From Strigamia acuminata (taxonomy: Eukaryota > Arthropoda > Chilopoda > Geophilomorpha > Linotaeniidae): a DNA stretch of 64,000 nt. The position numbers and the translations under genes are program-made. Below, piece by piece: positions 7,357 through 38,436 of this stretch (its first letter is position 1; each line of letters starts with the position of its first letter). The stretch covers positions 6,200,001 through 6,264,000 of the forward strand of contig OX442322.1 in NCBI GenBank assembly GCA_949358305.1. The letters run 5' to 3'. The notes below the pieces were generated by a model. It saw only the letters and a list, made by a program, of their open reading frames with translations, did no database searches and was not told the origin of the DNA.

Positions 7357-7764
7357 TTAAAAATGTATAAGATCTGTTTTGTCGACGGATTTCGTAAAGA
7401 TATCCGCAAAATTACATTTTGTCCCCACATGCGTGATCCCACTCATTCTTTTCTGGTAAGTTGACTATTTGCTCGAAGCGCGTTGGTATGAAAACTTCGA
7501 GGTGATTCGCCTCCAAATCAATGTCGAAGTCGTCTGCGGTTACATTCGATTCGGAAGGTTTCTTCTTTCTTTTGTCTTCAAAAAGATGTTCTGGAACACG
7601 AAGATTGTGATCCGCACAATAACGCTTGACATCAAGTATTGATCGTAATTTAGGTTTGTCGTATCCTTCAATTATGTATTCGACATCCTTTTGTCCAGTT
7701 GGCCTAATCTTCTCTGTTTTCTTCCACACAAGAGGTGGTATTGTCCGTACTGGATCTGGAACTT
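7357..7764 (-). pseudogene. Copia-B pol: MBD-like linker fused by deletion to the RNase H C-terminus
   Basis: Continues in frame from the pol segment at 9512 once the solo LTR is removed (4-bp duplication ACTT). Residues encoded by 7726-7580 resemble a methyl-CpG-binding domain: an initial W, then RPTGQKDVEYI, LRSILDVKRYC and a closing HLFED. Next comes the RT entry motif (FEQIVNLPEKNEWDHA). It then jumps directly to the RNase H tail (NFADIFTKSVDKTDLIHF, stop at 7357). About 1.3 kb of RT and RNase H, judged from Copia-A, is therefore deleted at about 7418. The protein could not reverse transcribe. Confidence 0.78.
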
Positions 7765-9511
7765 TGTGACGATTCTACTTTTGGGCTAATTTATTAGTCC
7801 TTTTTGAGATAGATAATTCGGTTTATACAAGACGTTGCTAAGTTTAGCAACAACCTAACCGAGATAAGCTACGGAAGCCTTCACAAACATGAATATGTAA
7901 TCAAGTAGAAATAACTTACAGTTTTAGTGTGACATGACATATTTATTACTAAATATTAACAACAAAATATGGGTTCTTGACGCGTGTAAACGGGCGGCAT
8001 CAACTGGTTGAGGATCCGGGCGAAGCCAGAGGGATATGGCTGACTTGCGGCATCGTCACAAATATCGCTACGGAGACGTATTTGGTCCGCAGCATCGAGT
8101 ATCTAATAACGCGAAGAGTCCTTCGCATAAGTAGGAATATTCAGCAGAATATTCCATGTTCCAAATGAATAAAAGTAAAGTAATTAGTGGAATACAACAA
8201 ATGAATTGTTGTATAAATATTAATTGGGCGGGGACCGTCACGACAATTGAAAGAACGTCGCGGGAGTTGTTGAGACTCCATCCGCCAGCATGCCTTACGA
8301 CGACAAGATCTCGTGATCAGGCGCCGAGTATTTAATTGTGTGCTTTAACTCGCTATCGGTGGTACCAACCACCAGGTAAACATTTCTATGGACTTACCGG
8401 TATAAAAAGATATTGCCAATACAGGATTACCAATGCCCGAGTAATTTATTTAACACAGTGTTGTTCAACTCCTGTTCACGGGTTACTAACCCGGAGGGTA
8501 CGATGGGGCGGGGACCGTCACGTCGGTCGAGAGAACCATCGCGGGAGGATTTGACTCCTCCATCCGCCAGCATGCCTTACGATGGCGGGATCCAATGATC
8601 GAGCACCGGGTAAAATATTATTTGGTCACTGCCGTTGGATTACCATTATCCAGGTAGTTATTTACCGCAACATCTGAAGATATTACTCACGGGCTACCAA
8701 CCCGGCGTGTTACCTGTGCATTAGGCCTTTACCGACTTTTAACGAGCGGAAGGACCAATCGTAGAAAGACGGGAACCTGCGTGGGCTGTTTACAACAACC
8801 ATCCTGCAGCGGACTGTGGCCAGTTAGCTGAGGGACCTACTTTCATTTAGCAAGGTCGTACTGTATACGACCGTTATATTAAGCCACCGTACGAAGTCCT
8901 ACTGTCCCGTAGAACAGCTGGCTAACGTTACGGGGCCATTTCATGCGGATGCATGTCTATTACCGGAGTTAGCCTTCCCGAAATAGCCCTACAACAGCAA
9001 TAACAAAATAGTAATGAATACTAACTGTGGAGAGCTGAGGTGGCCTGATGTGTCGATAGAGAATAATGAAATCAAACGATAACAATTCAACTACAGACAA
9101 TATACAAGTTCAGTTATCAAGCCAGGCTCTGGAAGTGAGAAAACTGAAGCTTATATAGTTCTGTAGAACTACTAGATTGGCGACAGCCAATCAGCGTACG
9201 AATCGGTGGATTCGTGGGTCACTAGTCCGGACCTAATATATGACTATGTCCAGATGGGCCCAGTTGGGGTCCAGAAAGGTCCGATTGGTTCCCTTTGACA
9301 GGTAAGTAATGTGGATATTGATTCGATAGAATCAACACCATCAAGTAATTAATACTTAATTCATATTGAATAAAATAGTTATATTTTATTCACCGTGTTT
9401 AAATAATTATTTATCACACTTTTTAGTTTTAACCGAGTTTGAAATACGCGCGTTGGTTAAACAGCGCCATCTATGGTGAACATTGATAACTATCGATTTG
9501 TAATCATCACA
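7765..9511 (-). mobile_element. Solo LTR of Gypsy-C inserted in Copia-B pol
   Basis: A 1747-bp sequence that is nearly identical, in reverse complement, to the Gypsy-C 5' LTR at 55277-57022. On the minus strand it begins TGTGATGATTAC and ends ATCGTCACA. It is flanked by a 4-bp duplication, ACTT (7761-7764 and 9512-9515). The Copia-B frame is restored when it is removed. The few differences seen suggest it is young. Short open frames inside it are not genes. Confidence 0.92.
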
Positions 9512-11889
9512 ACTTCTGTCCTTGCTTGTGGTGCGATTGCCGGCAAATTGGCTTGAAGTTTTTCTTCTGGCAATCTGAATTTGAGTTTCAGTTGAGGTAA
9601 CTCCAGTTGTGGATCTTCTTTCTTCTTAACTGGTATTGGCGGGGGTAGCGGCGGCCTCACATCTTCGTCCGAATAATTTTGACGATCATTGTCATCATCC
9701 AAATTATCGTCCAGGTTGTCAATATATGATGTGTATCTCTCAGGTAGGCCCAGCACGCCTTCAACTCCGCGCCTGCTTTCCACAATTTAACATCGCTAGT
9801 CTCGATGACTTCTGAAAATTCTGGTAGCCATACTCGATATCCTTTTGTGATCCTGGAATATCCAAGCATGATCCCGTGCAAACCTTTGTTGTCTATCTTC
9901 CCATCTCGTACTCTCTTCTGTACAAAGCAGAACCTTCCAAATTTTCTTAAATGCCGAAGTGACGGTTTGCGACCATAGTATAATTCCATCGGGGTTTTAT
10001 CTGAATTCAGCTTGGCAATTCTGTTCCTAAGGTAATTGAAAGTGAGAATGGCTTCTCCCCAAAAACGGTGTTCCAGTTTTGCATCGTAAACAAGGGCTCG
10101 CATCCCATTTGCCAACGTTTGGTTTAATCTTTCAGATACGCCGTTCTGGGCAGGGGTATACGCGTTTGTCCTCTCTTGAATGATTCCTAGTTCCTCGAGG
10201 TATTCTCCAAACTTGTTGGAACAAAACTCCATCCCATTGTCCGTGCGAATGGCTAGAACCGATTTCCCAAGTAGTCGTTCTATTCGTTTTACGTGTTTTT
10301 GAAAAATATCAAACACCTCGTCCTTTCTCTTCATGAGGTACACTGTAGAATAACGAGAAAAATCGTCCGTAATGGTAAGGAAATACCTATTTCCTGACAG
10401 CGTCGCTGTCCCAAAAGCTCCGCATACATCCATGTGCAGAAGTTGTAATGGTTCTTTCGACCGAATTCCAGGCAATGACTTATGAGACACCGATTTCTTC
10501 TTTGCTAACGTGCAGACATCACATTGTGTAATTGGCACGTCTAGAATTGGCAGTCCAATTACCGCATCTCGCTTGCTCATCTCTTGTACGCTTGGAAAAT
10601 GGATGTGTTTAAGTCGCTCATTCCACAACCTCGCTTCCTCTGGATTGGATGTCCTTTTAGTTGAGCTAGTTGATTCTTGTTTTTGTTGTTCGCCAGTATT
10701 CGCTTTGTTGTTTTGTTTTAGTTTTAGTTTCTCAAAATCGGGTTTCTGATCACTGGTTTTGATGTAATAAAGTCTGTCCTTTTTCATTGCTTCCATCAAT
10801 TGGCTTTTCCACTGCGGGTCGTAGACTTTTACTAATCCCGAACCAATCGCGACTTTACATCCGGCCTCGTCAATGCATGGTCCCGACAACAAATGTCTTC
10901 TCAAATCTGGCGCGTAGTAGACCTTTTTCAATGTGACTGGAATTGTATCGTTTCCCACTATGCACATTACACACACATCTCCAACGCCTTGAATTTGGAT
11001 TAATGTTTTTTTATCTGCTTGGCTTATCGTTCCACTAGTTTCTTTAAAGTTGAAGAACTGGTTTCTGTCTTTGCAAAAATGTCCAGTGGCCCTGGTGTCA
11101 TAAATCCAACAATTGTTGGCTGCACTGCACTGCAACATTTTTTCTTTGTCTAATTCCGTCAGGAAACCAACGTCTAACATGTTTGTGTCCAAGTCTTCGA
11201 CTGTATTTGTGTTCAAGCTGTTGCTTGGCGCGAGCTGCACCGTGCAATCTCTCGCCCAATGTCCTGGTTGATTGCATCGAAAACACAGCCCCCGTCCCGA
11301 TGATCCGGTCGTGTTTCCGCGAAAATTCCTCAAATTTTTGCCGCCTCGATAATTCGATCTGCCGCCCTTTTGTGCGCCTTGAAAACCACGATTGTTCTGA
11401 CTATTGTGTCCTTGTTGTTGGGATTTGGGCGCGTTATCATTGCTCTTTGTGTTTGAATTGTTCTGTCCTGTGCTGAAAGCATCTATTATTGGCCCCTGGC
11501 CTGAATCTCTTCTCTGCTGCGCCAGTCTGCCTTCCTCGGCGACCAATTCGGCTTCAACCTTTTCTAGTGTGAAATTAATGTCCTCCCATCGGTAAATAGC
11601 CTGGACGATGGACTGGTATTCCTGTGGCAAATACCGAATCAGCTGGAATGCCTGATACAAATCTTCTAATTTGTGTTTCCCATCGGCGAGCTTCTTCGCC
11701 GCATTGCGTATCTTTGCCGCAAAAACTCCAATCGTTTCCGTCGCCGGGTCGTATTTCAGGCTAAAGAATTCGTCCAACAAACGAATTATCCTCGCTCTGG
11801 AGACTGGTTCGAAGTTGGCTTTGAGCGTGTCCCACACCTTCTTGGCATCGACGACCCCACTTAGTAATTCATGATACTGCTCTTCAATT
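9512..11889 (-). pseudogene. gag-pol: Copia-B gag (most), protease and integrase
   Basis: Minus-strand frame encoding, in order: UBN2/Copia gag (HELLSGVVDAKKVWDTLKA); a CCHC knuckle (CFRCNQPGHWARDC); protease; GAG-pre-integrase (WNERLKHIHFPS..CDVCTLAKKKS); and integrase core with LLHMDVCG, IRTDNGMEF and NGVSERLNQTL giving D, D, E. The protease active site reads DTRAT where the sister copy at 62681-64000 has DTGAT, so this protease is probably inactive. A one-base frameshift near 9780 moves the frame before the linker ERYTSYIDN and the acidic/proline region. The 5' part of gag lies across the Copia-C insertion at 14660-14879. Confidence 0.88.
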
Positions 11890-12375
11890 TGACGATGATA
11901 AGTGAAGTTGTCAACGCCGGGAAAGGAACTTGAGACGAAGCAGAAATCATTTTGTGCCTGAAAACCGCACAAACGCGTCAGCCATCTTTATTCAGGCAAG
12001 AACAGGTGAGCAAGTGATGATATGTACAGGTGTCGAGGCTATTTGCCCTCGATATAAAAGTAGAACAAATCAACCTGATGGAAAGGTTGATTTATTCTTT
12101 ACATAACCAAAGTAAAGATAACTCAAACCTAGCATTAACACTGGATAATGCACTGGGGGAAATAATAGATAAACTAAATCATAGCAGACGACAACTCGAA
12201 ATCCATTGTGAAACATGAACCAACTGTTGTATTTAACACGCATTGCGACAGTCAGATGCAGTTGGCTCTCGATTCCAGTGCAGTAAACAATGCGACCCGA
12301 ATTTCGCCTTTATCGCACTTAACCGGAAAAGGTGCGACATTAACTTCGTGAAATGAAAACTGCTTTGACCCAACA
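11890..12375 (-). repeat. Copia-C 3' LTR
   Basis: 486 bp. On the minus strand it starts TGTTGGGTCAAAG and ends CATCGTCA. It is preceded by a polypurine tract (AGAGGGGGTTC, 12386-12376). It carries AATAAATC- and AATAAAG-type A-rich stretches. The 14213-14659 copy matches over all but the last about 28 bp. Confidence 0.88.
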
Positions 12376-13551
12376 GAACCCCCTCTAAACAGTTATCCAT
12401 TTCAATCAAATATATGATCGCATAATGCGTCAAGACGTGGGCGGGAAACCCACTTGGTCAGAATATCCGAGATGTTCAGCTCGGACTTTGTTCTTGTCAA
12501 AGATGAAAATTCCCTCGCCCATAAATTTGCCACAGTTTCCAATGTTAGCACTAGCTACGTCCTCCGTAAATGTGATCGGTTCCAAGTAGCAAAAACTCGC
12601 AAATGGTAGAGGAACTTGTGCTCGCGGTTTCGCTTTAAAATCGAATAGGCCCGCGTCGTATTCATAATCTTCCTCCTCACACCACCTCACCACATCGATT
12701 CGACTTCTAAATCGAGTGCCCGTTGGCGCAATGTAGTGAATAAAAACATGTCCGGCTTGTGCTCCGGATTTCCTAATGTATTCTACTCTTTTCCATTTCG
12801 TGATATCAATTTGTTGTAATTCAACTCCCCCAACCGCCCCAGTATGTCTGCCCCTTACATTAGGAGACTGTGCCACTGCCTCTTCATATCTGGCATCATC
12901 GTCACTGCCTTCACTTGGAGTAGCATCTCCTGCAGTGTGAGCGACATCCTCTGGTAAACCATGGTCTAATTGGGGTAATGGAGCCGGCTGAGACGTAGAG
13001 GCCTCATCCACTGGCTCCACCGTCGTTGCAGGAATAATTTGCTGCCTGGGAGGTTCAACAGTTTGTTGTGTTGTCGACACAGGGGGACTCTGAGGAATTT
13101 CCTCCTCTTCTGCTTCGGACTCGCTAATTAGATGAATATACTCATCAGATCCAAACCCCCTCTTAGCCTTAACACTTCCCAATCCTTTTGAAACTGTTGG
13201 TGTTCCCTCGTACCGATATTGATTCTCATCAATCTTTACATGCTTCGATGCAAAAACTTTGTTCTTGTGTGGGTCCCAGATTCTGTATCCAGCTGTGGTT
13301 ATTGCATAACCAATTAGGGCCCCCGACCAAGCTCTGCTGTTTAGTTTGCTTTTCTGAGTTTGCGCTGGGATGTGCACATACACTTTCGACCCTATGCAGC
13401 GCAAATGTCGCACCGACATACGACAGCCAAAGAAAACATTATAAGGAGTCCGTCCTTGTAAACTCGAATGAGGGTATCTATTTTTCAAATACACAATGGT
13501 ATTTGCCAACTCAGCCCATAAAAAGTGTGGAAACCCATTTTCAATTTCCAT
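12376..13551 (-). pseudogene. Copia-C integrase C-terminus, acidic linker and MBD-like domain, then RNase H tail
   Basis: A 373-codon open segment (13551-12430). It starts in the integrase C-terminal region (FPHFLWAELANTIVYLKNR, then GALIGYAITTAGYRIWDP). It continues through a glutamate/proline/serine-rich linker to a domain at residues 253-305 (12795-12637) that closely resembles an MBD: RKSGAQAG, then APTGTRFRS, then a closing LFDF. An RT entry motif (EPITFTEDV) follows. The sequence then jumps, with a frame change, to the RNase H end motif ISDILTKWVSRPRLD at about 12480-12430. RT is absent. Confidence 0.8.
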
Positions 13552-14212
13552 AGCTCGTACCCCCTATATGATGGTGCGATTCGATCGCTCCGCGACCGAA
13601 TTCATCTCGGGGCTGTAGGCGTTGGTCCGTTCGCATTTGATTCCGCAAGATTTAGTAGAATTATCCCATTCTTTGGACACAAACTCACCCCCCCTATCTG
13701 TGCGGATCGTTTAAACCTTTCTAGAAGTCGTCCGCTCGACTTCTGCTTGCCATACTTTAAAATGGGCAAAAGCTTCACTTTTATGCTTTAGAAAACTGAT
13801 CCACATATATCTGGAGTGGTCGTCCACAATAATGAGATAATACTCAGCCCCCCCTAAGGATTTGCATGATGCGGGCCCCCAAAGATCCATATGAATTAAA
13901 TCTAAAATTCCCTTGGACATGATCTCGGCTATTGGAGAAAAGGTTGCTCTAACCCGCTTGGCTCTATTGCACGCATTACAAGGAGAAGCCAATTCATTGC
14001 TTAATTTAACGCCAAAATTTTCTGTGGATTTTTGCATTTGAACAATTCTCTTTGCTTTCAGGTGTCCCATTCTGCCATGCCAAAAATCCATCAGCATTGC
14101 TTTCTCGTTATCCAATTTCTTCCCATTATTGTAATTATTATTAGCTGTTAAAGCTGTTTTAATTGGTCCCACTACTGTAGGTTTAGTCTGTTTTACTCCA
14201 ATCTGGTTAACC
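13552..14212 (-). pseudogene. Copia-C GAG-pre-integrase and integrase core, disrupted
   Basis: The open part 14172-13711 holds the pre-integrase zinc region (MDFWHGRMGHLKAKRI, then CNACNRAKR) and the first catalytic aspartate (IHMDLWGP). Toward 13552 come the second aspartate (IRTDRG) and the glutamate segment (MNSVAERSNRT), but with an in-frame stop after TTSRKV, a frameshift in the G-run after IRTDRG, and another stop before 13551. It is a non-functional remnant of the integrase, which joins cDNA to the chromosome. Confidence 0.82.
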
Positions 14213-14659
14213 CGGGAAAGGAACTTGAGACGAAGCAGAAATCATTTTGTGCCTGAAAACCATCTTTATCTTTATTCAGGCAAGAACAGGTGAGCAAGTG
14301 ATGATATGTACAGGTGTCGAGGCTATTTGCCCTCGATCTAAAAGTAGAACAAATCAACCTGATGGAAAGGTTGATTTATTCTTTACATAACCAAAGTAAA
14401 GATAACTCAAACCCAGCATTAACACTGGATAATGCACTGGGGGAAATAATAGATAAACTAAATCATAGCAGACGACAACTCGAAATCCATTGTGAAACAT
14501 GAGGCAACTGTTGTATTTAACACGCATTGCAACAGTCAGATGCAGTTGGCTCTCGATTCCAGTGCAGTAAACAATGCGACCCGAATTTCGCCTTTATCGC
14601 ACTTAACCGGAAAAGGTGCGACGTTAACTTCGTGAAATGAAAACTGCTTTGACCCAACA
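14213..14659 (-). repeat. Copia-C 5' LTR, inner end deleted
   Basis: Nearly identical to 11890-12375 but lacking about 28 bp at its inner end, where it passes directly into pol sequence after CCTTTCCCGG. A small difference (AACCATCTTTATC against AACCGCACAAACGCGTCAGCC) also separates the two LTRs. Confidence 0.85.
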
Positions 14660-14879
14660 CAATTGAGTAGTAAATCAAGCTGATGGCTTGTCCTTTTCAC
14701 AGCTTGTAGTCGGATCGATCACGCCACGACGCTCCAGGTGCTAAAGCCTCTTCGGTTCCATCTGTGAATGCCCAGCATCCGTAATGCATCAAAAGCACCT
14801 TGATCTGCGGTTTCCAACTATCGTAATTTACACGGTTCAGTAACGTGACTTTTCTGTCCAATTTGTCCGAATCCATCAT
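14660..14879 (-). pseudogene. gag: N-terminus of Copia-B gag, cut by Copia-C
   Basis: Minus-strand ATG at 14879-14877 followed by a typical Copia gag start: MMDSDKLDRKVTLLNRVNYD, then WKPQIKVLL, then ASWRDRSDYKL. A TGA follows DYKL, where the sister gag at 55019 has an arginine context. The frame continues KGQAISLIYYSI up to the CAATT target site. Domain family: DUF4219/UBN2 gag of Copia elements. Confidence 0.82.
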
Positions 14880-18691: not shown

Positions 18692-21592
18692 ATGCAGAAA
18701 GCGGCCAACTCGAACAGTTTAATTCCGGTTCTCGGTGTCGACAATTATGAACAATGGCGATTGTCGATGCAATTTCTTTTGAAATCGGAAGGGCTCTGGA
18801 GGCACGTGACGGAGGACAAGGAAGCGGAACATATTGCCACGTTAATGCCCAAAGAATTGGACAGATTTATGGTCAAAAAGGATAAAGCGTTAGGTCACAT
18901 CTATATTCATGTGAGCCCCGCCAAGCGCACTGTTTTGGAAACCTGTAACACGCCAAAGGAGGCGTGGGACAAGTTGGCGAAAACCTACGCACCCAGCTCT
19001 AGAGCCCGTCAAGCGGCGATGCGCTGGGAGTTTCTCAGCCTCCAACTCCAACCTGGCGAAGATATGCCGGACTTTATTGCCCGCGTCGATAATTACGTGC
19101 GGCAACTAAGCGATGTCAACGAGATTATTAGCCCGGTTCACCACGCATACCAGTATTTGAAGTGTCTGCCGCCCGAATATGCTCAGGCAACATTCGCCAT
19201 ATACCACTGGCCGGATCCCCAATTCACGCCGAAGGATGTCGCCGAGCAGCTGATTTCCGAGCACATGCGGCTCAAATCCATCGGGTTACTCGGAACGAGC
19301 CAATCATCAGCTCACGCGTCTATGAAGGGACAATTCCGGCCCCGAAATAAATCCGGACCTCGTGATATCTCGACAGTGAAGTGTTTTAATTGCGATCAGC
19401 TCGGACATTACGCGAACCGATGTCCACGTCCGCCCCGTCAACAACAGGGACAACCTACGGTTTCACTCCAACGTAATTCTCGGAGCAAGAGTCGCCGGCG
19501 CAACAAGAACGCTGCTGCGAAGGCCAACAACGCGCGTCCCCGAGAAAGCTCGCATCCACACCGAGAGGGGACATATTTTGTCAATGCGCCGCAGGTTATC
19601 CAACGTCCAGTCGCTCATTTTATGCAATCCAATGAGTGGATTCTGGATTGCGGCGCTACAGATCACGTATCTCACGTGCGTGCCGGTTTCACCGAGTTCA
19701 CCGATGTCATTCCATTCGACATCGAGTTGGGACAGGGAAAGTCCCAAGTGACGGGAAAAGGAACGGTTTGTTTGCTAATGGCGATCGATAAGACCCGATG
19801 CACCGTGAACTTAACAAACGTCCTTTACGCGCCGAATTTCGAGGCAAACTTGATTTCGGTTTCGAAGATAGACAAGGCGCGACATCACATCCACATTTTC
19901 AATAGTGAGATACATGTTTACCAATCGGACATTCGCAGCCCTCTTATCCGTGCAAAGGAGAGAGGAGGTCTTTATTATGTGGACGGTTTGTGTTCGAATC
20001 CGACATTTGCGACAACGGTTTCTCCCACTGTACAACCGACTCCAACGCTACCGCCGCAAATGTACGTGACAACAGAAGAGGATTTTATTAACATTCCCAA
20101 ACCGAAGAAGGGAAAAGGACAGCAAAGAGAAATTACGGATTTTCGGATTGAAATTCCGCTAGTTGAACCCGTGAAGCAAATTCCCGTCCAACAAGCTCCC
20201 ATTCCAACCAATCCGACTCCTCCTCCTATCCCTACTCAAATCCACAACAATTTGACCACCCCTCCTTCCTATGCGAGTGCCCTACAGTCAATCCCAACGG
20301 CAACTCCTATTGCAATTCCAAATGCAAATTCCTTTCCTCCCCTCGGCAACCCGTCTCAACCGAAAAAGAAGGTCATCGCCAATCCAGCCTCCGTCAAGGA
20401 CGCCACCGGCTTATGGCATAGCCGTCTAGGCCACCTTCATACGAATGGAATGAAGCTATTGGCCGCGAACGACCAAGTTTACGGAATGTCACCAGGGGAA
20501 GTGAGCAGGGAATTGGCCTGCAACGACTGCAGAATAGCCAAATCGACAAAAGCTTCTCATAAGCCTGATCCTAATCCCTCGACTACGAAGCCTTTGGACC
20601 TTCTCCACATGGATATTTGGGGGCCAGCCCCAGTTCCATCGTTTGGAGGAGCACGTTTCGTCCTTACCGTCATCGACGACGCAACACGCTATTGCTGGAT
20701 TATACCGCTAGCCCAGAAATCGCAGGTTTTCGCAACCTTTAAGGACTTCGTCGCTCGAGTTGAGAGAATCCAGGACACTCAAATAAAAGCAATTCGGACT
20801 GATCGAGGCGGAGAGTTTATGTCAAACGAGTTTCTCCGATATCTCCAAGACAAGGGCATCCAAGGTCAACGAACAAACCCGTCATCACCACAGATGAACG
20901 GCACGGCCGAGCGCATAAACCGGACAATGGCCGACAACTTTCGTGCAGTCTTATCCGAAACCAAGTTGCCGGAGGCGCTCTGGGCCGAGCTAGCGGTCAC
21001 GTTTGCCTACATTAAGAATCGGAGCCCTCATTCTCGACTTAATAATCAGGTCCCGTACATCCTTTGGCGACAGAGAGCCCTTTCGTTACGACATCTACGA
21101 AAAGTCGGTTCCAAGTGCTGGGTGCACTACACCGCACCAGGCCGCAAGAAGCTGGATCCGCGGGCCTGGGAGGGATATTTAGTCGGCTACGCTTCAGGGA
21201 CCCGTGGATACAGAATTTGGAACCCAACTGACAACCAAGTCTACGAATGTATTCACGTTAAGATCGATGAGCGGCAGTCGTATCGGAAATCCATCAAAAT
21301 TTCGACGCAGCAGCCGCAACAATCGTTTACTGGTCCCGGACAGCAAACCGTTACATTTGATGATAACCTACATTACCATCAGTGGCCGAAGGGATCTGAT
21401 TCCGAGGCGTCAGAACATTCTGCGAACGATTCCAAACGTGTGTCGACGGCATCTGCTTCGATGCACACGCCTCTGGCTTTTCCGCACATCCACATACCAC
21501 CACCGACAACTCCGGAACGGGCATTGCTGGATTTATGTGCGACATTACCTCCAGGTTCTGCGTCTCTTCGTCAATCCCATCACATTTCGTAT
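18692..21592 (+). CDS. gag-pol: Copia-A gag-pol, N-terminal part (gag, protease, integrase)
   Basis: 967 codons up to the Gypsy-B insertion. Order: Copia gag (VDNYEQWRLSMQFLLK, then WDKLAKTYAPSSRARQ) at about residues 1-215; CCHC knuckle CFNCDQLGHYANRC at 231-244; aspartic protease with WILDCGATDH near 316-325 (DCG rather than the usual DSG); a proline-rich spacer; GAG-pre-integrase (LWHSRLGHLHT, then CNDCRIAKS); integrase core with LLHMDIWGP, IRTDRGGEF and NGTAERINRTM as D, D, E; and the integrase C-terminal region (GYRIWNPTDNQ). The frame is intact to the codon adjoining the GTAT duplication and resumes at 35598. Start: the first ATG after a long leader. Confidence 0.95.
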
Positions 21593-23181
21593 TGTGACGG
21601 TTACACTGTCATACACTTTGTTAGTATAGGACGATTACTTCACCAATAGATGGCGCTGATACGTTTTAGCGGTAATTTCAAATTTCGACAATTTTTGAGT
21701 GAATAAAATATAAATTACTATTTATATTTTATTCCACTGCAACTTTAGACACTTTTAAATACTTTTGGATGTTTAAATACTAGTTGATTTATTTGTCACA
21801 TAATTCTATTGAATTATGTGCAAACTCTACACCTGGTGAAGTCACCCCCCATCACCCACTGTGAGTTGGACTCCTTTTGGATTATAGTCAAAGGGACTTA
21901 ATCCAAAATGTGTCCTGCGTATCCAGTTCCTGTAGTGGACCTAGTAGAAGACTATGTCCTGAGTATCCACTTCCTATGATCTGGGATTGGATGGATTTGG
22001 CTGCCCAGTGATCCCATTGGATCACTGAACAGCTATTCTCCTCACCGAGTATATATCCCCCTGCAAAACGGATATAGCTCGCTCTTGTTCTGTTTTGTTT
22101 GATACTGATATTACTTGAGCACATACTATACTTCTCTGCGTTCCGACAATCCGTTGTAGAAATACTTTGTATTTAGTGTAAGTATCTAGAGTGGGTAGAA
22201 GACTCACAGACACACTTCCCGCCTCTTCATGCCAACATTCCGTTGTAGAAATGTAGTAACTAGAGTGGAGAGATTCACAGACACATTTAAGTGTAGTATC
22301 TAGAGTGGGGTACAACCCACAGACACACTCCCTCCAGCTTCATGCCAACATTCCGTTGTAGAATGTAGAATCTAGAGTGGAGTAAAATTCACAGACGCAT
22401 TGGTAATGTAGAATCTAGAGTGGAGTATTTATATTTCACAGACGCATTATCAGAGTAATCGACGCGGAGTAATTTCCCGGTTACTCTCCCGCCAGCCAGA
22501 ACCGAGTGGAGTAATTTTCCGGCGATGGATAACCTTTCCTGCGAAATACTTCGATTCATTTCGTTGTTGGTTTGATGGAACATTTAAGTCTGACTTAAAT
22601 GTTGATTGCACTCGGGGCAAAAATAGCTCGGCGCTATTTTAATTATTTCTTTATTTTTATAGTTATTTATCCAGTTTCGCGAACACAATATCATGTTTAA
22701 TTCAATGGAATTTACATGAATATTTATTCCAATTGTTTCATCATTCTTATGATCGCGCTGTATAATTATTAACAATATAATAATTATACGTGTGATGATT
22801 GTGCCAAAGTCAACCGCACCTCTCGGATATAACACACCCAAGCCTAACCATTACACACCATTTTAGAACCAATCCAGGACCATTTGGAAGCCCGAACCAT
22901 ACTCAGACGACATCTTTTACGTCACCGTAATAAGAAAGTTACATATTCTTATTACACGACTGAAAACCGCAAGTGATATTATTTCAGGGCTTTTGCCAAC
23001 CCATTGTATATTTAACATAAGTTATTTAGCCATTTGTAGGCATAGGTTTTATATAAGTCTTCCATTCGTAATAAATTGTCACATGATTTGAGAAATCACA
23101 AGCCTCCGTACTTTTACACTTTCACACGAGTTCTCGCTCTAATTGTTAAGCAATTTGTATCTCGCCAAGTCAATCGTCACA
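21593..23181 (+). repeat. Gypsy-B 5' LTR
   Basis: 1589 bp, TGTGACGGTT to CAATCGTCACA. At 22130-22450 there are about five copies of a degenerate module built from ATCTAGAGTGG followed by CACAGAC(A/G)CA, spaced 45-90 bp apart, which may be regulatory repeats. TATA-like sequences lie at 22048 (GTATATAT) and 23049 (TATATAAG), the latter 20 bp before an AATAAA at 23070. Confidence 0.95.
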
Positions 23182-24070
23182 CGTGGAGGTCCCACCGAGA
23201 TAGGTTGCATTTTTATTGAAGTGAACTCTGTGATCAAGTGTAAAATTGAAAAATGAATTTCTTGATTATTTTATGTAGATATTATAATTAGAAATTTCCG
23301 ATTTTTCTCTATAAATCTACTATGAAATATCCATTTGTTTTCAAAAAATTCTCATTATCTTTTGGAAATATCTGAATTCGAATTTTTGGATTATTTTGAA
23401 AAAACTCATTATAAATCCGAATTTCATACAAAAAAAAAAAAAAAAATCTATTTTGATTTTGTTGAGTTTCCCAGAATATTCGACTATATTCTGGAAAAAT
23501 TCGAAACCTTGAATTTCGATCAAAAAACGAATTTGACTACAAATCCTGCTGACTGAAAAATAAAAAGTTAAAACATTTTATTTTGCTGGTTAAAAAACTT
23601 GACCAAGTTTCCATTGTTCTGTTCAACGTTTTGGATTATTATTTTAATCTTTGACGAAGTAAAGAATGTGACAAAGAGAGCCACTCACGATGCAGCTCGG
23701 AGTAGGTCATCCAGATGTGACATTGTTGAGAATTTCGGATTAGAAATTATCAGGAATTTTTCAACATCGCCAATCACAGCAGACTGTCTTGACAAAGGAG
23801 ATTTTCCGGAAGCTAGTTTGACAACCAATATTCAGCCACACTTGCTTTTCGACAGTGCGACCATCCAGTTGTGCCTTTGTGACCAGTGCCCGTTTGGACC
23901 ATTCTTGACCACGCAACAGGACAGTTTTTCCCGAAGCCACTTCAGTTTCAGCAGCTAAGGTTGTATTTTTTCAAATTATTTCTTAGTTTAATATTAAGCG
24001 TGTTACATTTACGCTAGTTCAGTTAAAATTTTATAATTTTTTCTTTTGTACGTGTGTTTCTTTGAGTATT
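23182..24070 (+). other. Gypsy-B primer-binding site and leader
   Basis: Two bases after the LTR comes TGGAGGTCCCACCGAGAT (23184-23201), an 18-base complement of the tRNA-Gln 3' end including CCA. The rest is an AT-rich leader with a poly-A run near 23430. A short open frame at 23599-23958 shows no recognisable domain and I do not call it a gene. Confidence 0.8.
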
Positions 24071-26119
24071 ATGGCCCGTAGACCTGTAAGAGTTCGTGGA
24101 ACACGAGGAAATCGTGGAGCACGACGACGTGGTGGTATGTGTGAAACACCAAGAGGAATTGTGGAGTCTGATTCAGAAAGCCAGGGGGAAGAAAATGTTC
24201 CTAGAGACGTTTCCAACCCAGGTAGTTCTCGAACAGATCCACTATCAGTCCCGCATGATTTAGAGGTTTACTGTCGCCATTACCAATTGGAAGTGACGCA
24301 GTTTTCCTCTTTGTGTGAAGCTCAACAATACACGGCGAATAATCATCACGAGAGAAATCGTGTAATTACTCCCGATGTAGTTGTAACCAACGAACGAAGT
24401 GTTTCTGTAGATCGAACTGGCCCTCGTTCACCGGCCACATATCGCTACCAGCAATTACCTGGATGGCGAATGAATGTTGCTCGTGACGACAATGGGCAGT
24501 TAAATTCTTCACTATCTGTTCAACCTTCGATTCAGTTACCAGCTAGTTCTTGGCGATCGAATTCAGCCGAAAGAATGGGAAATTCCGGACAAGGAAATAT
24601 TTCTGCGCCAATTTCCCGAAATTTGCCAAGTGCGACGGCAGTAAATAATAATTTACCCGCTCCCACTAGAAATTTGAACGATTCTTTCAGAATTCCACAG
24701 CCTCGAACTAATCTGTCGATCCAACCAAGGGGGAGAAATGAAAATTATCGAAATTTTCAATCTCACGCCCAATCTGATGGAGATTTTAGGAATTATAGGA
24801 ATTCCCGCTCTCAAGGTGGACGAGCCCCGCCGAGAAACCAACGTTTTCCCGGAGCTCCAGGTGATCCACGTGACTCCGATCCTAACTCGAGTAGTGACGA
24901 ATCTCACGCTGGTAGAGGGGGAAATTATAACAATAATTTCCACCGACGAAATAATTCGCGTTCTCCACCGCCACCTGATAGACATCAAAATTTTCAAGGA
25001 GAGCCAAATCCGCCACCCAGAGACCAAGAAAGTCGGTCTACACCCAATTCGAACTCTGCTTCTAATTTGTCGGACGAAAATGTAAAACAAATTATTCAGG
25101 GTTTAGTTGGTCAAATCCGAAGTCCGAGTAATCCCAGTCAGAATTTTGGAAAAGGAATCGAGATTCCTATTTTTGACGGGAAACAGACAGAGGTTGCGCG
25201 ATTCCTTGAAATCGTCAAAGCTGTCGCACTCGGGAAAGGCATCCCTTTAGACGACATGGTACACACTGCTGTACCTGGACGACTATTAGGCCATGCACAA
25301 CGTTGGTTCCATAAGCAACGCCATACTTTTAACAGTTGGCGAACTTTCGAAGCCTCTTTTCTCGATTGTTTCGATCTCGTTCCACTTACAAGAGAAAGGC
25401 GACTTCTTAATGTAAAACAACGAGCCGACGAGTCACTTTATAGTTTTCTTCTGCGTTATACGCAAGAACAAGGTGAAGTGCCGCCAGGTGATAAAACTGG
25501 ACGTGCGCAATTATTCGACAATTTAACTCAAGAAAGTTTCACGGCGTTATGTACACAAGGAATGTATGGTGACTTTACAGTAGATGACATTCTACAATAT
25601 GTAGGAGCAAATCGCTCTAAGTTTGAAAGTTCTCAACTTGCAGCAAAATTGGAGTACGATAATCGAGAGAGTCATCCTACTCCAAAAGTTCACGAAAAAT
25701 CTAAGATTTTTCCATCCAAAACTTCACTACGTTTGACACAAACGCAAGATGAGGTTGAAGATGAAGACGAGTCGGAAAATGACGACTCAACTGACGATGG
25801 TTCAATGGAGCGATTATTTGCCGCCCAGTATGAAAAGACTACTGGAAAATGCTTTTTCTGTCACGAGCCTGGACATTTTAAAAGAGAATGTCCCGTTCTT
25901 GCTAAAAAATTAGCAGGGAAAGCAGACTCGTTAAACTCAAATAAAAGATTTAACCACTCTGCTCCCAACCCCGAGTTTAAACGACCCAAACAAAATTGGG
26001 TTACGTCAGAAACTTTAGACTCCAAATTTACTGACTTCCAGAAAAACATGGTTGACCTGTTAATTAAGCATTTACCAGCAGCCACGGATTCAGTCACTCC
26101 CGACGAGACAAAAAACTGA
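24071..26119 (+). CDS. gag: Gypsy-B gag polyprotein
   Basis: 682 codons from the ATG at 24071. The N-terminus is very basic (RRPVRVRGTRGNRGARRRGG). A long low-complexity region rich in N, R, S and P follows, to about residue 340. Next is a retrotransposon gag capsid domain (FDGKQTEVARFLEIVKAVAL, then RWFHKQRHTFNSWRTFEASF). There is one CCHC knuckle, CFFCHEPGHFKREC, near residues 597-610. The frame ends immediately after the heptamer A AAA AAC. It is homologous to the Gypsy-C gag at 58161-60337, which carries two lesions while this copy has none. Confidence 0.92.
   Translation: MARRPVRVRGTRGNRGARRRGGMCETPRGIVESDSESQGEENVPRDVSNPGSSRTDPLSVPHDLEVYCRHYQLEVTQFSSLCEAQQYTANNHHERNRVITPDVVVTNERSVSVDRTGPRSPATYRYQQLPGWRMNVARDDNGQLNSSLSVQPSIQLPASSWRSNSAERMGNSGQGNISAPISRNLPSATAVNNNLPAPTRNLNDSFRIPQPRTNLSIQPRGRNENYRNFQSHAQSDGDFRNYRNSRSQGGRAPPRNQRFPGAPGDPRDSDPNSSSDESHAGRGGNYNNNFHRRNNSRSPPPPDRHQNFQGEPNPPPRDQESRSTPNSNSASNLSDENVKQIIQGLVGQIRSPSNPSQNFGKGIEIPIFDGKQTEVARFLEIVKAVALGKGIPLDDMVHTAVPGRLLGHAQRWFHKQRHTFNSWRTFEASFLDCFDLVPLTRERRLLNVKQRADESLYSFLLRYTQEQGEVPPGDKTGRAQLFDNLTQESFTALCTQGMYGDFTVDDILQYVGANRSKFESSQLAAKLEYDNRESHPTPKVHEKSKIFPSKTSLRLTQTQDEVEDEDESENDDSTDDGSMERLFAAQYEKTTGKCFFCHEPGHFKRECPVLAKKLAGKADSLNSNKRFNHSAPNPEFKRPKQNWVTSETLDSKFTDFQKNMVDLLIKHLPAATDSVTPDETKN
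26110..26119 (+). promoter_or_regulatory. -1 ribosomal frameshift site at the end of Gypsy-B gag
   Basis: Heptamer A AAA AAC (26110-26116), in the gag frame, directly followed by the gag stop TGA. Slipping back one base enters the pol frame at 26116, which is open for more than 3.5 kb. Gypsy-C has the same arrangement at 60328-60337. Confidence 0.85.
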
Positions 26120-29100
26120 TTCAGGGGGTTGTTCAAATTGCCCAACCCCCGCCTAACGAATTGTTTCCTCTCTCGGAATTGTCAAATGATTTATTTTCAC
26201 GAAAAGATGAATTTAAATTAAGACATAAGCCTAGTCACCTCACAGTGCCATATGTCGACGATTCGAAGAATAAACCACCCTCGTTGGTCATTTCTTACGA
26301 AGCAGTGCCTGTCTGTCGGAAAGCTAGTAGTTCCACTGGCGGTGTCGATGAAAATTTAAAAGTCATGACAGACCAACTAGAAAATTTGAGTATTTTTAGT
26401 GGAAGCTGGAATGCACCGAAAAAACCACTTGTACCTAAGGTTTTCAAGTTAAGAAAACTTCTTAAACTTGAAAAATGGAACAAGAAAGAACGAAAGGTAT
26501 TTTTTGGCAAACTTTGCAATAGCAAATTAATTAACGGTGGCAAAGATGATCCGCGTATGAATATCCAAATTGGAGGTTTGGATTACAATGCACTAATGGA
26601 CTCTGGAGCCACCCAATGTTTTATTGGAGTACAACTCCTTTCAAACACAGAAATTCCGGTGGAATTCATACAAGAATGTCCCCGCGGAATGCGTGTCTGC
26701 GCAGTCGGAATAGATCACCGACCTATCGGCCAAGTTTGTCTTTGTGTCAAATGGGCAGATAAAAAGAGAGTTACGCCTATGACCTTCATAATTCTACACA
26801 AGAATGTATGTGGATTAATTTTGGGCCACAATTTTATGCGTAGAACTGGAGTCAACTTAAATCCAAAACGAGCAGTGTTCACCTGTGATGACATGCCCGG
26901 ATGGACAGCCCCGTACGAGACCATTGAACTTAACTGTTGCTTAGCAAACATTAAGACTTTGGGTCTCCAAGGTGAAGGAACTCCCACTTCACCTGACTGG
27001 GCAGAAAAACTTGTCGAAGGCTGCAACAGCTCGGCGGAAGAAAAACAATTACTCGTAAACGTTCTTTTGAAATTAAAAAACGTATTTCGAGATCAATTGG
27101 GCTGCACGAAGGTGGCCAAGCACAGCATCAAGTTTAAACCTGGTGCTACTTGGAAACACCAGCCGTATAGAATGTACAACCCGGCCAAGAAGGCCATTAT
27201 GACGGAATTGGTCGAGGAGTTAGAGGCTGATGGGTTAATCGAACCTGCCACTGGCCCTTATATAAGTCACCCCGTCATAGTAGCTAAACCCGGCGGGAAG
27301 TATCGATTATGTATCGACTACCGCTGGTTGAATGCGATCACAGAAGTTGATGCAATTCAAATGCCAAGTATTGACCTATTAATTCACCATACTAATCAGG
27401 CCAAGTACTTTACATCCATTGATTTAACTAAAGGTTATCATCAAATGGAAATGGAGGAGGAGGATACGAGCAAAACTGCTTTTTACACCCCAAAAGGCAA
27501 ATTTCAATTCAAGAGATTGCCATTTGGTCTTTGTAATGCACCTAGCTCTTTTCAACACCTCATGACTACCGTACTGGGTGACTCTTTATATAAACACGCT
27601 CTGGTCTACTTAGACGATATAATTATTTTTTCCGACACATGGGAAAATCATTTATTACATATTAAAGACGTACTTGAGAAGTTAGATGCCGCAAATCTAA
27701 CTATCAATAAAGACAAGTCAAAATTTGGTCGAACATCATTACGATTTTTAGGCCATTTAATTTCGGAGGGATCTCTTCTTCCAGACCCTGACAAAGTCTC
27801 GGCTGTAAGGAATTTTCCCAAACCGACTTGTTCTAAAGACATTCAAAGATTTGTAGGACTTGCGAATTTTTTCCGAAAATTCATTCCTAACATCGCAAAT
27901 ATTGCTCGTCCATTGACCAATATTATGCATGATCAAGCAAAGTTTGTGTGGGATGATCCACAAACAACTGCATTCGAAACTATCAAAGATATTTTGTGTG
28001 ACAAGGACCAAGCCCTTCTTCACATGCCAGATATGAATAAACCTTTTGTCATTTTGACAGATGCTTCTCATTCAGGCTTGGGTGCAGTACTCTGTCAAGA
28101 CGTAGAATTATTCTGTGAAAAGAAACAGAAATTAATAATGGTCCCGAAAGCAGTCGCGTACGCCAGTCGAGTGTTACACGGGGCCGAAGTAAGGTATTCT
28201 ACGCCGGAATTGGAGTGTTTGGCTGTTGTATGGGCAATCGAAAGATTTCGCCCATATATTGAATACACGACCTTCACTCTCGAGTCCGATGCTAAGGCCC
28301 TTAGCTGGTTGATGAGTACGCCGGAACCATCGGGAAGGTTTGGTCGTTGGGCCGTCAAAATACAATGTGGCGCGTTTAAAATTATTTTTAGACGCGGCGC
28401 AATGAACCAAGTAGCGGACGCATTGTCACGCGCCCCACTGTCTGCACTAGACACTCCGGATTACGATTATATCGAACCAGAGGAAATCACCCATTTCTAT
28501 CCAACTTGGAATGGAAACAGGTGTGCATCTTTACAAGTGACGGAGACTGAGCGCAAACATTTTCTCACAAATGTTGGCCTTAGTTTGGATTTTTTCTCAG
28601 AATCATATAATCCAGTTAGATTTCATGATTCTGGAGAAAAGGGGGAAGAAGAAGGATGTACGAGAGAAAATTGCAGACATATAGATGTCCACAATTGTAA
28701 TCACGAAAATGTACACACTGCGCTAACAGATATCCTAAAAGTAGTTCCGCCGACGCGAGACGAAATTATCGAAGCGCAGCTTAAAGATCCAGCATGTAGT
28801 AAAATCCTTGTTTACCTAAAAGGAGACGAAAAATTAAAAAATCGTATCACGGATAAACATTGGTTAAATGCGATTCGTGGCTACACTCTCGACGAACCGG
28901 AAGAAAATAAAGGTGTTATGCTAATTTATTTTGCTCCGACCGATGAGGAGGAGTTAAACGACTCCGGCAACGGGTTTAAGGCGGTAATTCCACGCTCTCT
29001 TGTGAGACGTGCATTATTCGCATGCCATGGCCACCCACTTACAGGACATGCCGGCATGAGCAAAACCCTAGATAGAGCAAAAAAGATGTATTTCTGGCCT

Positions 29101-30396
29101 AGAATGAGCAAAGACACTCGAAACTACGTTCGCAGTTGCACTCATTGCCAACAATACAAACCTAGTCAACACCAAAAGCATCGGGCAAGCTATACACCCC
29201 ACAACATGACCAACCCGTGGGAGACTGTAAGCATTGACCTGATGGGACCAAAACCAGCCGGTCGTTCACAATTAAAATGGATTTTAGTAATCATTGATAA
29301 TTGTACAAAATGGATTGAAGTCTTCCCACTAGCGACTGCATCAAGTGAATGCATCGTTAATAAAATGAGCGAAGTTTTCCACCGTTGGGGATATCCAAAA
29401 AAGATAATCTCCGACAACGGCAAACAATTTGTGTCGACAATATTTAATGATTTTTGTCGAAAAAATCACGTAGATATTGCTCACATTAGCCCATATCACG
29501 CTGCCGCTAATATTACAGAGCGGGCTAACAGGACTTTAAAAATGATGTTAGCTTTATACTCGGACATTCACTCCCACTGGCCAAAATATTTAAATTCTTT
29601 TGCTTTTGCGATGCGCACCGCTAAGTCCGAGGCAACAAATTGTTCTCCGATGATTCTTAATACCGGAAGAATCGTTCCTTTGCCATTTGACCCGCGTATT
29701 ACTTAACACGCTATCAAATTCGACAAAGAGAACCCCGAAGCCTATGTCTATAGTATTTTAGACGTAATTAGACGTGCACACGGCGAAATGCATCGAAAAA
29801 TTCAATCGAATTACGAAAAGCATGATCGACTACATAAAGACAAATATTATATTTGTCAATTCGCCAAAGGAGATCTCGTGTGGAAAGCCACACATATTTT
29901 ATCGAATAAAGATAAAGGGATTTCGGCAGGATTCGCTGAGAAACGTGATGGACCTTGGGAAATTACGGCTGTTCTCGGCGGAGGTTCCTACACACTACGG
30001 AAGCTTTCTGATAACACGAAAGCACAAGCGATCAACATACAGGATTTAATGCCTTATATCCCAAGTTACCCGATTGAGGAATGGACATTAGATCAGAAAG
30101 TCGGCACCAACGAGTCACACCCGACTCCAGATTGGATGGCAGGTCAAGTTGTTAATTCTCCAGAATTAATAAATGAACCTGTGTCCATGGAAACAGAGGA
30201 TTTAGTTGAAGAGAAAGAGGAGGAAACTCCTCAGATTTCTTCTAAAGAGGACGAAACTCCTCAAAATCCATCTAAAAAGAGGAAAAGATTTCCATCTCCC
30301 GTTCGACAGTCTAAACGAAGACCCAAGCCGAACACAAAATACGTGACCGATTTTGTACAACTCATAAATTGTTTAAAACAAGTCAATTTGGGTTAG
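26116..30396 (+). pseudogene. pol: Gypsy-B pol (protease, RT, RNase H, integrase) with one TAA
   Basis: About 1427 codons in the -1 frame of gag. Protease active site LMDSGATQC; RT with LCIDYRWLNAIT and YLDDIIIF; RNase H ILTDASHSGLGAVL and QVADALSRAP; integrase zinc finger HGHPLTGHAG, then CTHCQQYK; core with SIDLMGP, SDNGKQFV and ITERANRTLK. The C-terminal part (30396 end) has an RDGPWEI module and a basic tail (KKRKRFPSPVRQSKRRPK) that looks like a nuclear signal. The single interruption is a TAA at 29704-29706, after DPRIT. Reading continues in the same frame for 230 codons. Given the near-identical LTRs, the stop is either a very recent mutation or the copy moved in trans. Confidence 0.92.
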
Positions 30397-35593: not shown

Positions 35594-35597
35594 GTAT

Positions 35598-37700
35598 GAA
35601 GAAGAACGTGACACCGACCATGACATCCGAGAGATGGACGAATTGTCGATTTATCCGGAAACATCCGAACACGTTGATGCGTCAGCGGAACAATCGGCAC
35701 GACCATCGCCTCCGACAACTTCTCGTACATCCGCTCCGCCATCACCTCAGCGATCGGCAGCGCCTTCTCTTCCCCGTGAAACACCGGTACCGACGCCGAG
35801 ATTTATTACGACGCGTCGTCAGCAACGTGTTGGTGATCAGACTACGCAAGGGTTGCAAATTTTCGACCCCGATCCCAATTCGCCGGCGACTGCGCGCCAC
35901 ACCACTCATAAGTGGCGATTTGTCGGTGGAGATAGCGAGTGCCGTGAATGGGTACGCGAGGAACATCTAAGAAAGGATCAGAAGCCCGGAAAAATCTTAA
36001 TCGACGTTTATTATTTTCCAACTCCGAAGATCCGTCTAAAATCTTATCACGACATCGAGGAGTATTGCATGTTGAACAACATCGATTACGACCCCGGACT
36101 GTTTTTCTTCGGTAATCTCGAACATAAGTTACCAACTCTTCCGGGTGTTCGTCATGCGGCTCATCTATGCCGAACCGAGCCGGCTTCATTCGCCGAAATT
36201 CCCAAGTTCAACGACGCTCCGAAATGGCGTGAAGCGATTGGAGAGGAACTCGATATGTTCAAAGAACGACAAATCTATAAAGAAGTTCCCCGACCACCCG
36301 ACACCACTATTCTTGGCTGCAAGTGGATTTTTAAACTCAAAACCGATGCAGCCGGAACCGTCACCCGATACCGAGCACGCTTAGTAGCACAAGGTTTTTA
36401 TCAAACCCTCGGAGTCGATTTTGATGAGGTGTTTAGCCCAGTCGTGAACTTCATATTGATCCGTCTGTTTTTCTGTCTTCTCGTCGTATTACGTGGTTGG
36501 CAGGACGCCCACCTCGACGTGAAAGGTGCGTACCTGTACGGGGAGTTAAAGCATAAAGTATACATGAGAATCCCTGCAGGTGCCACATGCACCGATCCAA
36601 ACAACGTGTGGCTTCTTCTCAAATCGCTTTACGGCCTCCACCAATCCGGGAGACAATGGTTTGAGAAACTCGACGAGACACTTCGGGCCCTCGGATTTCG
36701 AAGACTGCCAGCATGTAATTGTGTTTACGTGTTCGGGAATACAGCTGTTATGCTGGTCTACGTGGACGACATCGTCGTGTTCTACGCGTCCGACAGCGTT
36801 TTCAATCAGCTAATCCGTCTCATCTCTTCGAAATTCGACACAGTCAACCTCGGTCCGATCACGAAGTTATTAGGCGTCGAATTTATCCGCGACGCCGGAC
36901 GCACGTTCATAACGCAACGTGCTTATATCGCCAAACTGGTTAAGAAATTCGGGGCGTCGACCAATAATCTCGTCAAGACACCAGTGACACCGGGAACGAC
37001 ACTCGTTAGAGGATTGACCGAAAACTTGGAAGATTTTCCATACCGATCTCTAATCGGTTCACTTCTGTTTTTGGCATCGAAAACTCGTCCCGACATACTC
37101 TATTCCGTCATCGCTTTGGCACAGTACAACACGTGCTATAATCGAACCCACATCCGCGCCCTGTTGCAGGTTCTGCAGTACGTGGCAAACACTGCAGAGC
37201 TTTGCATCGAATTATCCGGTTGCTCTTCTAGTCAACTATCTGCATTTACCGACGCGTCGTGGGCAAGCGATCCGGAGACATCTTTGAGCTTCGGGGGATA
37301 CATCGTATACGTTGGAAATGTACCTATTGGCTGGTCCTGTCGTAAACAGTCGACCATAGCGTGCTCAACCATGGAAGCCGAATTTATCGCCCTGGTTGAG
37401 TGCGTGAAGGAGATTTTCTGGCTCGACAGCGTGTACACCGAATTCCCGATTCTCAATCGTCTATCCCGACCTATCGTGTATTCCGACGCCCTGGCCTCGA
37501 TTCAATTCACATCCAATGATATCGAGAACGCGAAGACGAAGCATATTCGCGTGAAGTTTCACTGGCTCAGGGAGTGGTTTACTGCGGGAGTCTTCGATCT
37601 TCGAAAGGTAGCCGGCGAAGCTAATACCGCCGACATATTCACAAAGTGGCTATCTTCGGAACGTTTACGATCATTGATTTCGAAGATCTTCCGAGCATAA
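35598..37700 (+). CDS. gag-pol: Copia-A gag-pol, C-terminal part (MBD-like domain, RT, RNase H)
   Basis: In-frame continuation of 18692-21592 after the Gypsy-B target site. It begins with an acidic and proline/serine-rich linker. It then has an MBD-like domain at 35943-36113 (EWVREEHLRKDQKPG, then IDVYYF, then IRLKSYHDIEEYC, ending PGLFFFG). RVT_2 reverse transcriptase follows (CKWIFKLKTDAAG, ARLVAQGF, DVKGAYLYGEL, and YVDD at 36759-36770). Last is Copia RNase H (AFTDASWASDPETS, STMEAEFIAL, KHIRVKFHWLREW, TADIFTKWLSSERLR). All catalytic motifs are present and no stop occurs before 37698-37700. Together with the first part this gives about 1667 codons. Confidence 0.94.
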   Translation, partial: EEERDTDHDIREMDELSIYPETSEHVDASAEQSARPSPPTTSRTSAPPSPQRSAAPSLPRETPVPTPRFITTRRQQRVGDQTTQGLQIFDPDPNSPATARHTTHKWRFVGGDSECREWVREEHLRKDQKPGKILIDVYYFPTPKIRLKSYHDIEEYCMLNNIDYDPGLFFFGNLEHKLPTLPGVRHAAHLCRTEPASFAEIPKFNDAPKWREAIGEELDMFKERQIYKEVPRPPDTTILGCKWIFKLKTDAAGTVTRYRARLVAQGFYQTLGVDFDEVFSPVVNFILIRLFFCLLVVLRGWQDAHLDVKGAYLYGELKHKVYMRIPAGATCTDPNNVWLLLKSLYGLHQSGRQWFEKLDETLRALGFRRLPACNCVYVFGNTAVMLVYVDDIVVFYASDSVFNQLIRLISSKFDTVNLGPITKLLGVEFIRDAGRTFITQRAYIAKLVKKFGASTNNLVKTPVTPGTTLVRGLTENLEDFPYRSLIGSLLFLASKTRPDILYSVIALAQYNTCYNRTHIRALLQVLQYVANTAELCIELSGCSSSQLSAFTDASWASDPETSLSFGGYIVYVGNVPIGWSCRKQSTIACSTMEAEFIALVECVKEIFWLDSVYTEFPILNRLSRPIVYSDALASIQFTSNDIENAKTKHIRVKFHWLREWFTAGVFDLRKVAGEANTADIFTKWLSSERLRSLISKIFRA

Positions 37701-37907
37701 ACTTATCGTGACATTCCTAGTTTCTTTTCACCCGACTTCGAGGATCATCGGGTTTCTGTGGGAATACCGAGCTTAGTCAAGTGATTACCACGACAGTACC
37801 CGGTTCGATGATTCGACTTTATCATTTATTTCTCAACGATTATCAACTGTAATTCCAGTTTACGTTCATCTTGTCCCCTGATAAATATTTCCATCGAAGA
37901 GGGGATT
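37701..37907 (+). other. Copia-A 3' untranslated region and polypurine tract
   Basis: Short non-coding stretch ending in GAAGAGGGGATT (37896-37907) next to the 3' LTR. Confidence 0.8.
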
Positions 37908-38436
37908 TGTTGGTCAAAAGACCATTTTGTATTGATGAATATATTTGTTATTTCCTAGATTTCCCATTGTGTTTAGGTATACAGCGCATTTTTGTTATTA
38001 TTTAATTGATTTCGATGTTACTATTCGTTTTTGCGCTGTCCCGTATGTAATTCCATACTCCTGTATCCTTTAGACTATGATTTGTTCTTCAATTCAATGA
38101 TTTGTTCACACTTAATGTTAATTTCCGGCACCAGAGTGCCACTGTCACTGTATCCATAAATCCAAGATGGCGCGACCCTTTGATTCCAGCTCCTTGGATA
38201 TTTTCCACCTGTTTTGTAATGTATATTTTGATTTATAAAGTGTTATATATATTTTTGACATTGTGTTGGGTTTATTCATTGCTTTAGAGCAGCCCACAGT
38301 GCATATAAGCGACCTTACGTCGCGCACTTTGTTTGCAAGCGATACGGATCGTATCGCCGCCGTCCGCGCGTGTAGTGCGGCTCCAAACACGCTTCCAATC
38401 GGTGATAACCGATACTTTGCGCATTCTCTGTCTACA
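37908..38436 (+). repeat. Copia-A 3' LTR
   Basis: 529 bp, TGTTGGTCAAAAGACC to TCTACA. Followed by the second AAAAG (38437-38441), after which Gypsy-A gag resumes. Confidence 0.95.

Follow-up and report, generated by a model that had tools for sequence, protein, structure and literature searches.

In a 64,000-nucleotide stretch of the Strigamia acuminata genome (contig OX442322.1, positions 6,200,001 to 6,264,000; hereafter the window), a broken retrotransposon of the Copia type carries a methyl-CpG-binding domain (MBD) behind its integrase. Most probably a host-type MBD was captured by a Copia element between integrase and reverse transcriptase (RT), was kept, and tethers integration to methylated CpG chromatin, the window copy being an RT-less member of this lineage copied by its relatives. 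The capture would have occurred in an ancestral element, into the spacer separating integrase and RT, and the descendants would have retained the domain. The MBD would act together with the integrase complex, is predicted to bind methylated CpG, and may direct new copies to chromatin that is methylated, CpG-dense, and rich in repeats, and away from genes.

The initial annotation had read an MBD in positions 12637 to 12795 of the minus strand. Translation of this segment gives the 53 residues concerned, residues 253–305 of a 373 amino acid open reading frame (12430–13551), which match the Pfam family MBD (PF01429) with an E-value of 2.1e-10 as a separate piece and 1.1e-9 within the whole frame, where the score of 38.3 bits lies well above the curated cut-off of 21. 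The gapless alignment to known MBD proteins that had been proposed was recovered with an MBD1 chain of the PDB (6d1t, 1.6e-6), running without gaps from the tryptophan to beyond the RS motif, and structure prediction yielded an MBD fold. MBD1 and MBD2 provided the best-scoring PDB chains, with MBD3 lower. Profile, sequence, and predicted fold all identify the domain as an MBD and agree with each other; the Copia lineage keeps it under purifying selection, and the interpretation originally given to it is supported.

By tblastn the MBD was found in 45 of 46 loci compared, the exception (L027) being a host gene which, read by eye, is BAZ2-like. Where the neighbouring parts were read, the MBD shares one frame with the SH3-like domain of the integrase upstream and the RT downstream; the latter was read in 12 copies (L009–L013, L015–L020, and L022), and in 24 of the 45 loci at least 559 codons remain open from the MBD onward. 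The annotated position between integrase and RT is thus correct for the relatives and wrong for the window copy, in which no RT follows. Searching the genome with PF01429 gave 1,092 first-look candidates; the best 150 were scored, all of them exceeded the cut-off, and 107 of these 150 are MBD-bearing Copia copies that lie on large contigs in frames of 1,400 amino acids or more. An MBD inside the pol region of an arthropod retrotransposon corresponds to what has been published for such elements. That the match arose by chance, or from a piece of a host gene next to a Copia element, has next to no probability: the occurrence at 45 of 46 loci in one frame with SH3 and RT as well as the agreement of Pfam, PDB, and fold already contradict it, and no point in its support was found.

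In a tree of RT pieces a single branch (100/98) separated all 15 MBD-bearing copies from seven Copia elements taken from databases; a further copy (L023) was too short and was dropped, and the sample held no close relative free of an MBD. This topology agrees with a single capture. Residues 225–345 of the window frame gave 48 database candidates for MBD-Copias elsewhere, none of them at E ≤ 0.001. An RT-bearing sister copy used as query gave 12 matches elsewhere, none of the 12 with PF01429 and with a best E-value of 0.64 for a home-made MBD profile; one of them (P0002), the nearest of the seven Copias in the tree, starts at the RT, which makes the label "no MBD" unsafe for it.

The MBD in the Copia lineage is under purifying selection. 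The ratio of replacement to silent substitution rates (dN/dS) was calculated over 15 pairs of copies that are not mutually independent, with nine pairs for the first part of the RT. It amounted to 0.00–0.16 for the MBD in 11 of the 15 pairs (of the other four, one was without change and three were saturated), 0.00–0.13 for the SH3 domain (13 of 15), 0.15–0.48 for the linker (13 of 15), and 0.01–0.13 for the first part of the RT (seven of nine). The MBD values thus resemble those of SH3 and RT and contrast with those of the linker. One could consider the MBD a passenger without function in the element, and the window copy, being dead, would fit; dN/dS is low wherever it could be computed (11 pairs), and the arginines are invariant in 21 of 21 aligned representatives, which already contradicts this, and we regard it as very improbable. 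Two RT-less copies, L001 and L003, differ in the MBD by 13 silent and no replacement changes. This was rejected as a proof of selection in the RT-less branch, as the copies look mosaic: dS shifts abruptly along pol (0.40 in SH3, 0.09 in the linker, and 0.51 in the MBD), which suggests template switching between sub-families. Given this apparent mosaicism, the constraint in the RT-less branch may stem from RT-bearing relatives.

In MBD proteins CpG is read by two arginines. Both, as had been annotated, are present in the window copy and in all rows of an alignment of 21 chosen representatives, from which near-duplicates and two loci whose MBD is interrupted by a stop (L014 and L024) were excluded; W15, R22, G29, R44, and S45 are invariant throughout. 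The aspartate of the DVYY strand had been described as not conserved, which is true of the window copy, with phenylalanine for the aspartate and histidine for the first tyrosine, and not of the lineage, where 15 of the 21 representatives have aspartate, four phenylalanine (including the window copy), and two tyrosine. FIHY or FVHY replaces DVYY in L001–L008, L013, and L019–L021, and YAHY in L009, L022, L045, and L046. MBD3-type domains bind without preferring methylated sites, and the MBD of the window branch might likewise bind DNA or CpG without a methyl preference, serving there as a general DNA clamp for the integrase. The replaced aspartate and tyrosine speak for this; both arginines are still present in the branch. 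As 15 of the 21 representatives keep the aspartate, and MBD1 and MBD2 chains outscore MBD3, we think it rather unlikely.

The COX1 of the assembly (L049, P0015) points to a centipede host: its closest database match is Mecistocephalus marmoratus, a geophilomorph centipede, at 84%, three horseshoe crabs come next at 81–83%, and the centipede Bothropolys and more myriapods follow, interspersed with other arthropods. The host likely methylates its DNA, judging from its gene content. A search of the genome with PF00145 gave 11 matches, interpreted as a set of five loci (L051–L054 and L056), four of them DNMT1-like and one DNMT2-like; a DNMT3 was not recognised in this six-frame search, where split exons make an absence weak evidence. 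For the related Strigamia maritima four Dnmt1 and one Dnmt3 are described (PMC4244043), and a fraction of 0.758 of 719 transposable elements was found highly methylated, with methylation falling sharply at the element borders (PMC7343188).

Insertion sites were examined at two scales. Flanks of 400 bp beyond the 3' long terminal repeat (LTR) had a median of 60 CpG per kb (n=25), compared with 39 at 20 random places (p=0.011), and flanks of 800 bp a median of 62 (n=24) compared with 33 (p=0.004). These values rest on 25 of 30 tails, as the LTR end could not be fixed in L082, L013, L016, L018, and L022; for L015 and L083 it was extrapolated, and the random places came from nine contigs only. Because repeats are common to L084 and L007, L089 and L011, and L002 and L020, the flanks are not fully independent. 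GC content is also higher in the flanks, and the observed to expected ratio of CpG (CpG o/e) is the same as at random places. At the chromosomal scale, those listed copies were compared that have frames of 1,400 amino acids or more and lie on 11 large contigs, comprising two MBD-Copia sets (107 and 89 copies) and 113 copies of one Gypsy family, all of them the best-scoring ones of the genome searches, with the length of contig C11 guessed. The median distance to the contig end was 2.58 and 2.68 Mb for the MBD-Copia sets versus 5.75 Mb for Gypsy (p=2e-7 and 2e-6; without contig C1 p=1e-5 and 4e-5), where a contig end may be a centromere or a telomere. The Gypsy family was indistinguishable from a uniform distribution in this respect (p=0.40). 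Distances to kinase-domain loci, an uneven gene marker, were computable for 101 and 82 MBD-Copia and 104 Gypsy copies; the MBD-Copias were farther away (p=0.002 and 0.048), with a median of 1.96 versus 1.26 Mb at p=0.002. Between the two MBD-Copia sets there was no difference in either distance (p=0.83 and 0.44). A binned comparison of the distributions was set aside, as its bins were picked post hoc and its lists by hand (99 of 150 and 84 of 150 copies, with 41 and 36 on C1 and C3).

Steering of integration, put forward in the initial annotation, agrees with the CpG-dense flanks and with the chromosomal distribution, neither of which proves it. Alternatively the distribution may be passive, insertions into genes being purged and Copia elements surviving in gene-poor ends, with the MBD serving some other purpose, for example competition with host repressors. 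A greater distance from kinase loci than in Gypsy would also be expected under purging, and the CpG o/e of the flanks is not unusual; together with the higher GC content there and the altered DVYY strand of the window branch, these points weigh against a tethering to methylated CpG. Within this genome, however, a Gypsy family whose frames are similarly long is not distinguishable from uniform in its distance to contig ends, so purging would have to hit Copia far more than Gypsy, and we find a purely passive origin doubtful. As a separate observation, long kinase-domain frames without interruption, mostly of about 340–450 amino acids, are numerous at about 29–47 Mb of contig G000:C1, where intronless kinase genes seem to have expanded locally.

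The window copy is a dead, broken member of an RT-less branch. It retains integrase pieces, the SH3 domain, and LTRs as Copia features and has no RT; its integrase is split over two open pieces, and the remaining space is too small for gag or protease. Its LTRs (11910–12375 and 14206–14659) are 95.3% identical, and AATTG stands directly outside both insertion ends (11885–11889 and 14660–14664) when the flanks are read from the sequence. The upstream piece (13711–14172) matches gag_pre-integrs at 2.4e-5 (24.4 bits, below the cut-off of 28.4) and rve at 0.005 (17.5 bits, below the cut-off of 32.6). RT and RNase H are missing, since tblastn with the 505 amino acid RT/RNase H piece of L020 matched only its last 41 residues, in a different frame from the MBD and extending beyond the stop of the 373 amino acid frame.

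The same L020 piece was searched against nine further loci (L001–L008 and L021). Its last 27–41 residues were found in all nine as well as in the window, and its first 25–28 residues were weakly matched (E 0.05–0.14) in six (L003–L008); L002 also has an RT match, located past its LTR. At each of the nine loci the remnant of the C-terminus lies outside the MBD frame, which stops soon after the join, and the loss of RT and RNase H is therefore a shared deletion; an in-frame loss was rejected on the same grounds. Between the MBD and the end of the 3' LTR, L003–L008 are 96.9–99.9% identical; beyond it they diverge, and therefore are six separate, recent insertions, with open frames of 1,065–1,126 amino acids. 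In L003 Pfam finds Pol_BBD, the integrase core, SH3, and MBD, with gag_pre-integrase (28.3 versus 28.4) and the zinc knuckle (20.5 versus 20.8) just below their cut-offs, and the protease DTGA and the integrase D, D, and E are legible. Of 110 scored genome matches 21 reach the end of the query, and nine of those 21 were inspected. The LTRs of L001–L008 are about 88–96% identical to those of the RT-bearing L019 and L020, relatives of a kind that is likely to have donated the RT; as these LTRs are common to both, the window copy was probably reverse-transcribed by the enzyme of such relatives. We tentatively suggest that the branch is a recently multiplied non-autonomous element that keeps a single open frame for zinc knuckle, protease, integrase, and MBD, which may borrow its RT from LTR-sharing relatives and whose MBD may be selected for the landing site and not for copying. 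It is not mentioned in the literature passages met, which were not searched for it by name and did not include the text of de Mendoza et al. 2019.

Features of the Copia and Gypsy elements in the window.
Feature	Position	Strand	Basis or remark
Window copy, LTR to LTR	11890..14659	(-)	LTR pair and comparison with copies elsewhere
5' LTR	14206..14659	(-)	without its last bases; start of internal deletion
Open-frame piece with gag_pre-integrase and the beginning of the integrase core	13711..14172	(-)	Pfam
373 amino acid frame: integrase SH3, linker, MBD, short tail, stop	12430..13551	(-)	ORF list, Pfam
Retroviral-polymerase SH3-like domain (integrase C-terminus), residues 41–112	13216..13431	(-)	SH3_retrovirus (PF25597) 2.5e-23
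MBD, residues 253–309	12625..12795	(-)	PF01429 1.1e-9, PDB matches, predicted fold
C-terminal pol remnant	12405..12527	(-)	tblastn with L020 RT/RNase H piece, query 465–505 only
3' LTR	11890..12375	(-)	LTR pair; 3' end set by copies elsewhere
Second Copia, gag-integrase half	18692-21591		split from RT half by Gypsy element
Second Copia, RT half, MBD at about 35943-36110 before RVT_2	35594..38143	(+)	RVT_2 3.5e-57; 3' end from L048
Gypsy LTRs, direct repeats	21592-23181 and 34004-35593		1,590 bp, 99.94% identical
Gypsy pol	26161-29706

On its 3' side the window copy is flanked by the gag portion of a further Copia, whose gag-integrase frame spans 9657–11972 on the minus strand and to which an MBD-like stretch at 7415–7774 of the same strand (25 bits with the home-made profile) perhaps belongs. 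In the second Copia of the window the home-made profile found an MBD with 33 bits (E 2e-9), and Pfam gave no PF01429 match at E 0.001. Its second arginine is a lysine in the window and an arginine in the intact sister L048; this MBD family is therefore divergent and not dead, and the copy was rejected as a natural mutant with a degenerate MBD. Judging from its near-identical LTRs, 21592–35593 is a young Gypsy element inserted into this second Copia; two of its internal frames (29788–30396 and 31705–33345) had no Pfam match and could be an extra gene. Elsewhere in the assembly, at L049 (G000:C157), mitochondrial cox1 adjoins a 12S rRNA-like stretch, read by eye, on the opposite strand, an order that seems unusual.

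Raw sequence thus confirms the uptake of a DNA-methylation reader by a retrotransposon and extends the published case by a deep set of MBD sub-families within one genome. The RT-less branch would separate a role of the MBD from reverse transcription, and the aspartate, phenylalanine, and tyrosine variants of the DVYY strand would be a natural series for comparing methyl specificity with insertion sites.

The MBD in the window Copia is a phenomenon published in 2019 for arthropods and met again here. De Mendoza et al. are said to have found in that year that MBDs of Copia elements in S. maritima bind methylated DNA and that young copies accumulate in CpG-dense regions, with spider copies reportedly favouring methylated gene bodies, and reportedly proposed an integration guided by methylation readers. 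The window copy resembles their family as an arthropod retrotransposon with a captured MBD and differs from it in lacking RT and gag. With MBD1, MBD2, MeCP2, and MBD4 (PF01429) it shares the profile, the arginine pair, the tryptophan, the glycine, the RS motif, and the predicted fold, whereas the window branch replaces the aspartate and first tyrosine of the DVYY strand. In chromoviral Ty3/Gypsy elements a chromodomain, also a chromatin reader, stands beside the integrase and biases integration; the principle is the same, yet the mark recognised by the chromodomain is histone methylation, its fold is unrelated, and the elements that carry it are of the Gypsy type. The work of de Mendoza, Pflueger, and Lister (Genome Res 2019, 29:1277–1286) is cited in PMC7343188 (as reference 15), PMC8226279, PMC9246332, PMC12344493, and PMC11292947. 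Retrotransposons of dinoflagellates and charophytes that bear a DNMT (PMC5890265) have likewise taken up a protein of cytosine methylation; unlike the MBD-Copias they carry a writer and not a reader, and the body of that paper does not contain the string "mbd".
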